From contig JAGWXK010000018.1 of the NCBI GenBank assembly GCA_018969905.1, positions 1 through 35,226 of the forward strand: DNA of 35,226 nt, in the 5' to 3' direction. Shown here piece after piece: positions 28,108 to 32,554 of the stretch (position 1 is the stretch's first letter; each line of letters opens with the position of its first letter). The position numbers and the translations under genes were made by a program. The notes below the pieces were generated by a model. It saw only the letters and a program-made list of their open reading frames with translations, was not told the DNA's origin and made no database searches. The DNA is from Bdellovibrionales bacterium (GTDB lineage: Bacteria; Bdellovibrionota; UBA1018; CAIMNF01).

Positions 28108-28188
28108 GACTTGTGTAGGTGCCCCGATCGACTTCATCCTGATTCAAACGAAGTATATTTTTGATCCACGTTCATGGAGGAACGGGTT

Positions 28189-29799
28189 ATGCGAATCGGG
28201 TTCACCCTTTTTTGTTATTTGATCATCAGCGTTGCATTGTCATCTCCGGCGCTTTCTGCAAGTCAGGAATACCAGTCTCGACCAGGGGACTGGGTGGTAC
28301 GAACAAAAGCCTCAAAGATTGATGGCGCATTTGAGAGAATCGCAGCCCGCTTGGGTCGAAATCTGGGGCAGAAGCAATCGGTTCAGATCCGGAAGTTCAT
28401 GACCTCCTCCGAGTTTGCGACTTTGATCATTCGCGGCGGGAGTTTTTCCGATACCAAAGCCGCCCTTCGCCAGGATCCGGAAGTGGCGTATGCAGAGCCG
28501 AATTATCTTTTTCACGCGCTCGGTCGCATGGATCCCGTGCCGAATGATGCCCGGTTTGGTGCCCTCTGGGGATTGAAGAATACAGGTCAGGCCGATGCCG
28601 CAGGTCAGATTGGTTCGGAGGGATCTGATATTCATGTGTCTCCGGTTTGGGCCGAAGGTATTACTGGCAGTCGTTCCATCAAGGTTGCAGTGATTGATAC
28701 AGGAATTGACGGGGTTCATCCCGATCTTCAAGCCAATGTGGATGTGGCAAATGGCTATGATTTCGTAAGTCAAACCGTGGGCGGAGCAGATGACCACAAT
28801 CACGGGACGCACTGTGCGGGCACGATTGGCGCACTCGCAAACAATGGCGTGGGGGTTGCGGGAGTGAATTGGAACGTCACTCTGATCCCGATTAAGTTCC
28901 TGGATTCGCGCGGCAGCGGAACTTTGGAAAACGCAGTTCAGTCGATTCAGTACGCAACCAGGTTAAAGGTGGACATCATGAGCAACAGCTGGGGCGGCGG
29001 TCCATTCACCCAGGCACTTTATGATGCGATTGAAGACGCAAAAAAACAGGGAATCCTCTTTGTTGCCGCAGCCGGAAATGATTCCAACAATAACGATTCA
29101 CGGGCAACCTACCCGGCAGGATACGAGATCGATAACGTTCTTTCGGTAGCGGCAACCGACAACCGCGATCGACTTGCGGGCTTTTCAAACTATGGTGCTC
29201 GCACGGTTCATGTTGCCGCGCCTGGCGTGAAAATTCTTTCCACTCTGAAGGGTGGGGGATATGGCGCGATGAGCGGGACATCCATGGCAACTCCCCACGT
29301 GGCGGGGATGGCCGCACTCCTCTTGTCAGCGAACCCGTCACTCGGGTACGGTCAACTCAAGGATCTGATCATCCGATCCAGTGATCCGGTTCGTGGTTTG
29401 TCACGCAAGGTGATCTCAAAGGGTCGCGTAAACGTCTATAATGCAATTCATGGAATTTTCCCGGTAACTGAAGGGCCGGATTCAACCAAGTGGCGTGATG
29501 TATCTTACCCAGTTGAGTCCGCGCATCCTTATGAAAATGGAAAGGCCGTGAGTTTCGAGGTCAAAGTCCCCGGTGCGAAATATCTGAGAATCGTGTTTGA
29601 TCAGGTGGATACGGAATCCGGATATGACTTTGTTGAAGTCAAGCAACCGCGAGGGGAAGTGGTGGAGTCCCTCTCTGGCAGCCAAAAGGCCTATACCAGT
29701 GATTACGTTGAGGGAGATGCGGCTGAAATCTGGATTCGGGCTGATTCCAGTGTGAACAAGTGGGGATTTAAGGTTTCAAAAGTTCAGGCAATTTATTAA
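28189..29799 (+). CDS. Secreted S8 (subtilisin-like) serine protease with C-terminal beta domain
   Basis: Signal peptide; catalytic triad motifs VAVIDTGIDGVHPDL, HNHGTHCAGTIGALANN, GTSMATPHVAG; propeptide-like GDWVVRTKAS...AEPNYLFHA. Confidence 0.93.
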   Translation: MRIGFTLFCYLIISVALSSPALSASQEYQSRPGDWVVRTKASKIDGAFERIAARLGRNLGQKQSVQIRKFMTSSEFATLIIRGGSFSDTKAALRQDPEVAYAEPNYLFHALGRMDPVPNDARFGALWGLKNTGQADAAGQIGSEGSDIHVSPVWAEGITGSRSIKVAVIDTGIDGVHPDLQANVDVANGYDFVSQTVGGADDHNHGTHCAGTIGALANNGVGVAGVNWNVTLIPIKFLDSRGSGTLENAVQSIQYATRLKVDIMSNSWGGGPFTQALYDAIEDAKKQGILFVAAAGNDSNNNDSRATYPAGYEIDNVLSVAATDNRDRLAGFSNYGARTVHVAAPGVKILSTLKGGGYGAMSGTSMATPHVAGMAALLLSANPSLGYGQLKDLIIRSSDPVRGLSRKVISKGRVNVYNAIHGIFPVTEGPDSTKWRDVSYPVESAHPYENGKAVSFEVKVPGAKYLRIVFDQVDTESGYDFVEVKQPRGEVVESLSGSQKAYTSDYVEGDAAEIWIRADSSVNKWGFKVSKVQAIY

Positions 29800-29808
29800 G
29801 GTCCCTTC

Positions 29809-30306
29809 ATGCCGAGGAAGGTACTTTTGATTTTTTTGGTTGCCTCAATGGGGTGCCCCGGTTTTGCCGAGGAGTCGCAGCCGGCTGTGAGTCCCCTGCT
29901 TCAGCCAAGTCCCACCATGATCCCGATTTCAAGGGAAGAGAAGGCCAGGATTTATTCCCAATTCAAAAAGAAGCTCGCAGAAGAGGAGCGTGAATTTGAA
30001 AGGCAGGAAAAAACCAGGCGGCGCGAACTGGTGAAGTCGCAAAATGAGCGTCGCAAGGAGTGGCGCGAACGCGAAAAAAAGGCGAGAAGGGAGTTCTTTG
30101 AATCCCATACGAGCGGTCCGGAAAGGCGTCACTACGTGCAGGATTTCGTAAAAAGGAAAAAGGAATTTGATGCCACTGAAAAGCGGGAATGGGTGGAGTT
30201 CAAGCAGCGGCAAAGCGAGGAGCGCAAGGCGTTCCGCCTCTCCCGTCAGGAGCGCAATCGTAGGGTAAACGAGTCCCTTGATAAGAATATCAAGCCGGAA
30301 ATCTAG
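29809..30306 (+). CDS. Signal-peptide-bearing, highly charged (E/K/R) helical protein
   Basis: Hydrophobic N terminus, then KKKLAEEEREFERQEKTRRRELVKSQNERRKEWREREKKARREF. Confidence 0.65.
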   Translation: MPRKVLLIFLVASMGCPGFAEESQPAVSPLLQPSPTMIPISREEKARIYSQFKKKLAEEEREFERQEKTRRRELVKSQNERRKEWREREKKARREFFESHTSGPERRHYVQDFVKRKKEFDATEKREWVEFKQRQSEERKAFRLSRQERNRRVNESLDKNIKPEI

Positions 30307-30977
30307 ACGCCCTTCGTATCAGGCCCCCAAAGATATTTGTGAAGCTGGATCTGGAAACGAACTGCCAATTTATCCTGCAAAATCAGTTCGGCCAAGGATC
30401 GAGCCGGAAGTCCCTCAAAGGTGCCTGGCGATCCGAGCGCTTTAACTGCAGGAGAAAACAGGATTTCCCGGGTGGGCAGCCTTCCATTCCTGACCAGGTC
30501 CCGCGCCCATTCGTAATCGGATTTGGAGGTGATTACGAATTTGATCTCATCCTCCGGTTTTAGAAACTTCAGGTTCTGCTCGAAACCTCCGCGACTCATC
30601 CCCGAGCCCGGAGTTTTGATGTCCATGATGATTCTTGCAAAAGGGGAGGCTGCCTCGATCGAAACCTCGCCATGGGTTTCAATCGAGACCGCATAGCCTT
30701 CCTGCCTCAGAAGTTTCAAAAACGGAAGAGTCCCTCGCTGGAGCAGGGGTTCGCCCCCGGTCAAAAGGACATGTTTGGCACCGGTTTTTCTGATTTGTGC
30801 CAGGATGGATTCAAAATCCATCCGTTTTCCGCCTTTGAAACTATACGCCGAGTCGCAATAGGTGCACCGCAGATTGCAGCCTGTGAGTCTTACAAAGACG
30901 AAAGGAATTCCACTGAGTGAAGTTTCTCCCTGAAGGGAATGGAAGATCTCAGTGATGAGCAGTCCATCAAATGCCAT
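30303..30977 (-). CDS. queE: 7-carboxy-7-deazaguanine synthase (radical SAM)
   Basis: EIFHSLQGETSLSGIPFVFVRLTGCNLRCTYCDSAYSF (CxxxCxxC), LLTGGEPLLQ, VSIETHGE. Confidence 0.92.
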   Translation of the reverse strand: MAFDGLLITEIFHSLQGETSLSGIPFVFVRLTGCNLRCTYCDSAYSFKGGKRMDFESILAQIRKTGAKHVLLTGGEPLLQRGTLPFLKLLRQEGYAVSIETHGEVSIEAASPFARIIMDIKTPGSGMSRGGFEQNLKFLKPEDEIKFVITSKSDYEWARDLVRNGRLPTREILFSPAVKALGSPGTFEGLPARSLAELILQDKLAVRFQIQLHKYLWGPDTKGV

Positions 30978-31006
30978 AGATTTTGGAAATTTATCGCAGC
31001 GTGATC

Positions 31007-31046
31007 AAAAGAGAAAGGCGCGAATGGGGCTCAATCCATTCGCGCC
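31007..31046 (-). terminator. Intrinsic terminator downstream of the riboswitch RNA
   Basis: Minus strand GGCGCGAATGG-ATTGAGCC-CCATTCGCGCC region (arms 31017-31027/31036-31046) followed by TTTCTCTTTT. Confidence 0.85.
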
Positions 31047-31157
31047 TTGTTGGAATGAAGAGAGGGTCCTTTGCTCCTGTTGATCTATCGGGGTGAATAG
31101 ATGATCAGTTGCTGTGTTGGGACCCCCCTTGAAAGCTTTGAAGGCTTCCTCACCTTT

Positions 31158-31241
31158 GGCAGCCCAGCCGACGTGGGTCTTCGGGGTAAAAGACCTGTAG
31201 TCCCGTTGGTTTTGCGTCTCCGACGTTTCCGTCGGGTTGCC
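31158..31241 (-). promoter_or_regulatory. GEMM-I-type cyclic-di-GMP riboswitch aptamer
   Basis: Minus strand GGCAACCC-GACG-GAAA-CGTC-GGA-GACGCAAAACCAACGGGACTACAGGTCTTTTACCCCGAAGACCCACGTCGGCT-GGGCTGCC. P1 GGCAACCC/GGGCTGCC, GAAA tetraloop hairpin, conserved GACGCAAA joining segment, second hairpin GGTCTT...GAAGACC. Confidence 0.88.
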
Positions 31242-31317
31242 TTTTTCAAAGGGGGTTTGGATTTCCCGCCTCTTCACGAGCCCCATTCTTTAGGGCTCTA
31301 TAAATTTTGTTTGATTC

Positions 31318-31347: not shown

Positions 31348-31447
31348 TTCATACTCTTATGATAGCTCATTGCGTTATTTGCGCAAGTGCGCTGACTGTT
31401 TTTTTTATGAAAGTTTCAGATTTCGCTGTAAGTTCAATGGGATTTCA

Positions 31448-32554
31448 ATGCGCCATCTACTACTTTCATTGACGGTTTTTTGGACACTTCTGGTTGCAGT
31501 TCCATGTCTTGCGATTCAATCCTTCACTCTTCAAGTCGAGCAGGATCTTGCGTTGAAACATGCTCTCCCGGTGTACATTCAACATCGGCTTGGAGACCTG
31601 AGCGTTCAGGGATGGGTTCAGGATCGAATCCGCGTAGAAATGAAGATGAAGGTTCTTGCAGAAACCAAGGAAGCCGCCGAGCAAGAGTTCAAAAAGCTTG
31701 ATCTGATCACCTTTGAGGGAAAGGACCGCTTTGAAATCAGGATGGGGCACTCTCAAGGGGTGGACTTGGTCTCCAAGATGCGTGATCGAGCCAAAAATCC
31801 GGTCCAAGTGGATCTCTTCATCAAGGCGCCCTATCAGAGCAATCTTTCAATAGTGATGGGCGAGGGCAAACGGATGAAGCTGGAGCAGTGGAGGGGTTCT
31901 GTTTCCCTGACGGGAAAAGGCGACTTCCTTTCTTTCGGAAATCTTGATCTTTCCGGTGAGATTTCCCTGAACTGCATTCAATGCGAAACCGAGATCCGAG
32001 ATTCCACGTTGAGTGGAAGAATTTCCGTGGGATCGAAGCCGGTAACCCTGTCTGGTGTGAACTCAAAAATACTGAACATTGATGGTGGAACCGAGGAGAT
32101 TCGGATTGATCAGTCCACCGGAAAGTTTACAGTCCATACACGATCCGGAAGACTTACGGTTTCGCGTTTCAAGGGTGATGTCCAATTTCAAAGCGAAGAG
32201 GGTGGGGCGTACCTGAGTCAATACAGCGGGGGTGCAGACATCCATACCGGAAGTGGGCAGGTGGTAATTGACATGGACGAGGTTCGAAACGGATTGAACG
32301 TCGATACGGAAAAGAGCGACATCCAAATCGGGCTTTTGCCCAGTTTTGTAGGAGGTCTTGATTTGAAGAGTCTGCGAGGGGACGTGATCGTGCAGTTTCC
32401 CTACGAAATCTCAGGAAATTCGAATCTGAATCGATATGGCCCTGCATCTTCCGGACAGGTGGATGGTGCGATTGGAAGAAAGACACGGCCCTTGATCCAT
32501 GCGTACAGCAAGCAGGGCGGAGTCCGAATCATTCGTAAGGTTCCGACCCGATGA
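31448..32554 (+). CDS. Secreted DUF4097-like beta-solenoid protein
   Basis: Signal peptide MRHLLLSLTVFWTLLVAVPCLA, then repeated beta-strand motifs (GDLSVQGW, GSVSLTGKGDFLSFGNLDLSGEISL, GRLTVSRFKGDVQFQSEEGGAYLSQYSGGADIHTGSGQVVID). Confidence 0.65.
   Translation: MRHLLLSLTVFWTLLVAVPCLAIQSFTLQVEQDLALKHALPVYIQHRLGDLSVQGWVQDRIRVEMKMKVLAETKEAAEQEFKKLDLITFEGKDRFEIRMGHSQGVDLVSKMRDRAKNPVQVDLFIKAPYQSNLSIVMGEGKRMKLEQWRGSVSLTGKGDFLSFGNLDLSGEISLNCIQCETEIRDSTLSGRISVGSKPVTLSGVNSKILNIDGGTEEIRIDQSTGKFTVHTRSGRLTVSRFKGDVQFQSEEGGAYLSQYSGGADIHTGSGQVVIDMDEVRNGLNVDTEKSDIQIGLLPSFVGGLDLKSLRGDVIVQFPYEISGNSNLNRYGPASSGQVDGAIGRKTRPLIHAYSKQGGVRIIRKVPTR

Follow-up and report, generated by a model that had tools for sequence, protein, structure and literature searches.

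In a 35,226-nucleotide stretch of DNA from a Bdellovibrionales bacterium (hereafter the window), the minus strand upstream of queE most likely carries the gene for a structured RNA of ~340 nt, counted between its predicted transcript ends, which encloses a c-di-GMP-I aptamer. The aptamer is ordinary; the RNA around it is unusual, conserved and gene-independent. We think it likely that the locus produces a stand-alone c-di-GMP-sensing RNA with its own promoter and its own terminator, and with a two-state fold contained within an outer helix, P0. Sequence comparison and folding support the aptamer, the architecture, two mutually exclusive helices, a constitutive terminator and the independence from queE.

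The aptamer and the RNA that surrounds it

The original prediction placed a GEMM-I aptamer on the minus strand at 31158-31241, and a covariance-model search bore this out. RF01051 (c-di-GMP-I, GEMM-I) matched the minus strand at 31155-31251 with 59.0 bits (E=3e-9), above the gathering threshold of 35 bits and over the full model length (1-87 of 87), which places the aptamer in this family; it is the sole RF01051 match in the 2.73-Mb genome. The base 5' of CAACCC is G, as had been noted, and is invariant in the 36 full-length relatives described below. The ligand-contact residues of c-di-GMP-I riboswitches are G20, A47 and C92 (PMC4744006). Equivalents of all three are present here, those of G20 and C92 being invariant in the 36 relatives and that of A47 being assigned, from its position in the Rfam alignment, to the A of a conserved CGCAAA segment. 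A preference for c-di-GMP would be consistent with the conserved G20 equivalent. With the riboswitches Vc2 and Vc1 (RF01051) the RNA shares P3, a GAAA tetraloop in P2, and the equivalents of G20 and C92. RF03167 (c-di-GMP-I-GGC), which models the aptamer only, is the best-scoring model for several sister-family relatives, whereas the window's RNA scores best with RF01051. The terminal loop of P3 (31180-31190, minus strand) is a conserved, exposed C-rich loop, with ACCCC in 33 of 36 relatives; CCCC is found there in none of 50 Bdellovibrionaceae aptamers.

The structured tail and the terminator had been recognized in the original prediction, but the RNA proved larger than described there, as a 5' hairpin, P0, the alternative strand of P1 and the promoter had been missed. 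It is bounded by a putative promoter at 31386-31359 and a strong terminator at 31048-31015, and the segment 31005-31305 folds at -120.1 kcal/mol compared to -86.6 kcal/mol for shuffled sequences (z=-6.3). Our confidence in this architecture is high. Along the minus strand, on which all the features below lie, the order is promoter, hairpin H0, P0 5' strand, hairpin H1, pyrimidine-rich strand, aptamer, near strand, far strand with hairpin T1, P0 3' strand, terminator and queE.

The putative promoter, TTGCGC and TATCAT separated by 16 nt (31359-31386), was assigned, like that of queE, by inspection of the sequence, and transcription would be expected to start near 31352. A generic promoter scan at a stricter threshold returned no site at 31359-31386; a TTG...GCGNTA-type element recurs at the promoter position upstream of many of the 36 relatives. 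In many relatives the sequence TAACGC-N3-GCGYTA, nearly a palindrome, lies between the -35 and -10 boxes; it may serve as an operator or belong to an extended -10 specific to the lineage.

The 5' hairpin H0 (GAGCCCTAAAGAATGGGGCTC, 31278-31298) has a stem that is predicted in 36/36 relatives (mean z -2.5), with two-sided changes at all six counted pairs. It is followed by the 5' strand of P0 (GAAGAGG, 31269-31275), which pairs with TCTCTTC (31057-31063; CTCTTC is near-invariant) in 97.2% of cells over the 36 relatives, so that P0 connects the 5' side with the 3' end, with the aptamer enclosed between its strands. The small hairpin H1 separates the P0 5' strand from the pyrimidine-rich strand CCCCCTTTGAAA (31244-31255), which is common to two alternative helices, P1 and Palt. 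Beyond the aptamer come the near strand CAAAGGTGAGG (31148-31158), the 3' strand of P1 (CCUUUG/CAAAGG), and the far strand TTTCAAGGGGGGTCC (31120-31134; UUUCAAGGGGGGUCC as RNA), which forms either T1 or the 12-bp Palt. In most relatives outside the window's genus the near strand contains CAAAGGAGG; within the genus it reads GGUGAGG, not GGAGG.

T1 (GGGTCC/GGACCC, 31062-31127) has z<-1 in 36/36 relatives (mean z -4.3) and two-sided changes at 5 of 7 pairs, which were counted helix by helix because a G-run shifts the register in the MAFFT alignment. It accounts for the nested helix of the original prediction, whose GGGTCC/GGACCC and TGATCATCTAT/ATAGATCA arms are as described: a hairpin (31082-31106) with ACCCC as its own loop is inserted in the loop of the conserved T1. 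The insert occurs in some members of the genus, and a second ACCCC hairpin inside T1 is seen in several same-genus relatives, the window included. The RNA would end at the intrinsic terminator (13 bp, 31015-31048) that had been predicted ahead of queE. We also agree that the tail holds no convincing reading frame: a small protein from the mechanical 93-aa ORF (31005-31286) was considered and rejected, this frame being open in no relatives other than the closest two and interrupted in six more genomes of the genus. The extra domains found no match in Rfam release 15 at gathering threshold, and a search of the open-access literature found no match on this order's RNA.

Conservation in the order and two competing helices

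Of the 55 genomes of the order, 40 have the aptamer, each in a single copy, including 12/12 of the genus; these genomes are mostly MAGs. We aligned 36 full-length relatives, one per genome, from five families of the order. All have H0, P0, H1, P1/Palt, T1 and the terminator. Of these, H0, H1, T1 and the terminator have stable folds in almost every member, and two-sided changes are numerous in T1, H0 and the terminator. A whole-RNA covariance model (R1) recovered the 36 at full length as well as a held-out relative, G051 (164.5 bits). That each genome has one copy and that the competing strands are invariant suggests a single, strongly constrained function.

A sixth family, f3, has only the aptamer region in common. 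In three of its loci (L119, L122 and L031) the aptamer lies 250-310 nt before queE and is followed by a different tail, AACCCCCCUCA...GGGUGGU, which R1 left unmatched; the f3 RNA is possibly a third architecture. Many contigs of family f2 start a mere 350-540 nt ahead of the RNA, and several of the starts carry ...TTTTCAAAGANCA, which resembles the reverse complement of an rRNA-operon leader (L002, L003, L005, L011, L016 and L191, first ~170 nt). The f2 RNA gene may thus lie head-to-head with an rRNA operon, an arrangement that would also account for the assembly breaks; a scan of longer f2 flanks for rRNA found none.

The pyrimidine-rich strand (CCCCCUUUGAAA as RNA) can pair with the near strand (P1) or with the far strand (Palt), and the two helices are mutually exclusive. 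In nearly all of the 36 relatives, the ligand-free minimum free energy fold uses the far strand, E(Palt)-E(P1) being -5.3 ± 3.1 kcal/mol (n=36, range -10.8 to +0.5), a difference that is only indicative since the energy model of the folding programs does not include the tertiary contacts of the aptamer. Tight ligand binding could plausibly reverse this 5.3 kcal/mol advantage of Palt. When P1 was forced, the far strand refolded into T1, and P0 was present in both states.

Both helices are well preserved across the alignment. The inner pairs of P1 are standard in 34-36 of the 36 relatives and the outer two show C-G to U-A changes; Palt is paired in 94.4% of cells. Counted together, P0, Palt and P2 are paired in 96.2% of cells, compared to 43-67% for slid controls, and none of 500 shuffles matched the observed score; most of the covariation in this count comes from the aptamer helix P2. 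P1 and Palt themselves are mostly invariant and show few compensatory changes, with 2 of 12 Palt pairs covarying. None of P1, Palt and T1 extends into the terminator, and the predicted switch lies inside P0.

We propose that, without ligand, CCCCCUUUGAAA would pair with the far strand, UUUCAA(A)GGGGGG, to form the 12-bp Palt, so that T1 would be dissolved and the near strand left free. With c-di-GMP bound, it would instead pair with the near strand as P1, leaving the far strand free to fold into T1. P0 would stand permanently around this strand exchange and termination would be unaffected; the output would therefore be carried by the RNA itself, through c-di-GMP being held and released, as proposed for merRNA, or through an altered exposure to a partner in trans.

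Comparison with merRNA and possible outputs

In B. bacteriovorus HD100, merRNA is a 445-nt RNA (1,073,741-1,074,185, minus strand) that was measured as extremely abundant and was proposed to act as a c-di-GMP reservoir; its authors reported no conservation outside Bdellovibrio (PMC3627812). The HD100 aptamer that we located (1,073,868-1,073,951, minus strand) is inside the published merRNA, and the family to which HD100 and a probable B. exovorus genome (G062) belong has this locus, in single copy, in 59 of 66 genomes. The longest downstream ORF is convergent in 40/48 members of this merRNA family; in HD100 it is the convergent ilvE-like gene that lies downstream. The two RNAs thus have in common a single copy, the same phylum, a c-di-GMP-I aptamer, a terminator of their own and no need for a sense gene downstream. 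The merRNA family also has a P1 (CCUUUG/CAAAGG) between competing purine-rich strands, AGGAGG upstream (49/50) and GGAAG downstream (48/50).

The likeness does not extend to the flanks. Unlike the window's RNA, merRNA has a ~230-nt 5' domain, a conserved GGAUUGGUUUCAUUCCCCUU element and no CCCC loop in P3. R1 matched HD100 merRNA in the aptamer region only (37.6 bits, positions 57-192), its match to the JSS loci was likewise confined to that region, and the flanking domains could not be aligned; homology over the whole RNA was thus rejected. The idea that the locus is a merRNA homologue with an extra domain is supported for the aptamer and for the stand-alone logic, and not outside the aptamer, where we detected no sequence shared with HD100 merRNA. 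The divergence of the flanks would be compatible with descent from a common RNA whose flanks were replaced. As homology is detectable only in the aptamer, a reading in which the RNA works like merRNA is better supported than one in which it is merRNA, and our best call is an order-wide, merRNA-like stand-alone RNA that resembles merRNA as far as sequence can tell.

We infer the expression, the ligand and the output of this RNA, and our confidence in any given output is low. It could be a passive reservoir that binds and stores c-di-GMP and nothing else, its second conformation setting affinity or release. We regard this as rather doubtful: the merRNA precedent (PMC3627812), the self-contained switch and the single-copy conservation, as with merRNA, speak for it, but a store requires very high expression, and storage alone leaves the conserved ACCCC loop, H0 and T1 unexplained.

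We give no more credence, and no less, to a trans-acting RNA under c-di-GMP control, in which the C-rich loops or the freed near strand would bind G-rich targets, targets resembling ribosome-binding sites, or else a protein, for example CsrA. The ACCCC loop is kept in the order and absent from the 50 Bdellovibrionaceae aptamers, several same-genus relatives repeat it in the tail hairpin, outside the genus most relatives have a Shine-Dalgarno-like near strand, and csrA is present in 12/12 genomes of the genus. Against this, no target was identified, the near strand of the window's own genus departs from GGAGG, and ACCCC could pair with GGGGU in the far strand, so that an internal contact is an alternative to binding in trans. 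A CsrA-type ANGGA site in the H0 loop was examined and set aside as a weak lead only: it is seen in many relatives, but others, G000 included, have AAAGAAU, ACGAG or AUGAC there, and a GGA that is not invariant weakens the site. The genome encodes three GGDEF domains.

Returning to the merRNA-like stand-alone RNA, we hold it conceivable, somewhat short of an even chance, that Bdellovibrionota harbor a phylum-wide class of gene-independent c-di-GMP "riboswitches", of which merRNA would be one branch and in which ligand-driven strand exchange within a closed RNA would control either storage or a trans activity (of a C-rich loop or a Shine-Dalgarno-like strand). What defines a riboswitch is the gene under its control; if such a class is real, the RNA itself would act as an effector. 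Until now merRNA has been a one-species oddity, and the RNA described here is a second, order-wide one with the same stand-alone logic. Its two-state core and C-rich loops offer mutants that would separate a ligand store from a ligand-controlled trans-acting RNA.

The RNA and the downstream gene queE

The gene downstream in the window, queE (7-carboxy-7-deazaguanine synthase; 30303-30977, minus strand), was identified by TIGR04349 with 248 bits (E=7e-74), below the equivalog cut-off of the model. Of the 37 genomes that carry the full RNA, 31 have queE in the same orientation 123-223 nt downstream of it. The RNA and its terminator are also intact in four others (G011, G017, G039 and G045), where a convergent gene follows, and in G012 the intact RNA is followed by a tRNA-Cys gene; in G015 the contig ends soon after the RNA, before the next gene could be read. 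No queE was detected in G012 or G017, which are draft genomes with possible assembly gaps. Conversely, G022 (L178) has queE and no c-di-GMP-I aptamer in the 1.3 kb upstream of it; this may reflect loss of the RNA from some lineages, single absences being weak evidence in draft genomes and MAGs. Since the RNA is kept where no gene follows it, it probably works as a free RNA.

The described RF01051 riboswitches lie in the 5' UTR of the gene they control, whereas the switch predicted here is closed within P0, apart from terminator and gene. The downstream sense gene is not constant, and the predicted folds show no ligand-dependent helix over the terminator or the translation start. Disrupting the terminator would cost 18.7 kcal/mol in the window and 13-29 kcal/mol across 36/36 relatives. 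Anti-termination, in which the 3' strand of P0 (CCUCUUC) would pair with the 5' arm of the terminator (GAGG/AAGAGG), was considered as well and rejected, given the same terminator cost and a pairing that is visible in some f2 members and not in f1. Between the terminator and queE, -10-like boxes lie close to the queE start codon, which suggests that queE may have its own promoter.

The convergent next genes, the assemblies in which queE was not detected and the separate terminator are better explained by a free RNA than by a queE leader, and queE is probably a neighbor outside the RNA system; our confidence in this independence is good. Of the two readings in the original prediction, a stand-alone, merRNA-like RNA is thus better supported than a riboswitch controlling read-through into queE. 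A classical cis-acting riboswitch, that is a long leader with c-di-GMP-dependent termination ahead of queE, appears improbable: it could draw on the prevailing gene order, with the terminator between RNA and queE, and on long c-di-GMP-I expression platforms with two terminators, as known from Bc1 (PMC11218506), but the full structure persists without a sense gene next to it or a detectable queE, the costly terminator stands outside both alternative helices, and queE may be transcribed from its own promoter.

Around the RNA and queE, the neighboring genes are those of a subtilisin-like secreted protease with a mycosin-type S8 match (28174-29799) and of a divergent protein with a probable signal peptide and a weak LiaG match (31448-32554).
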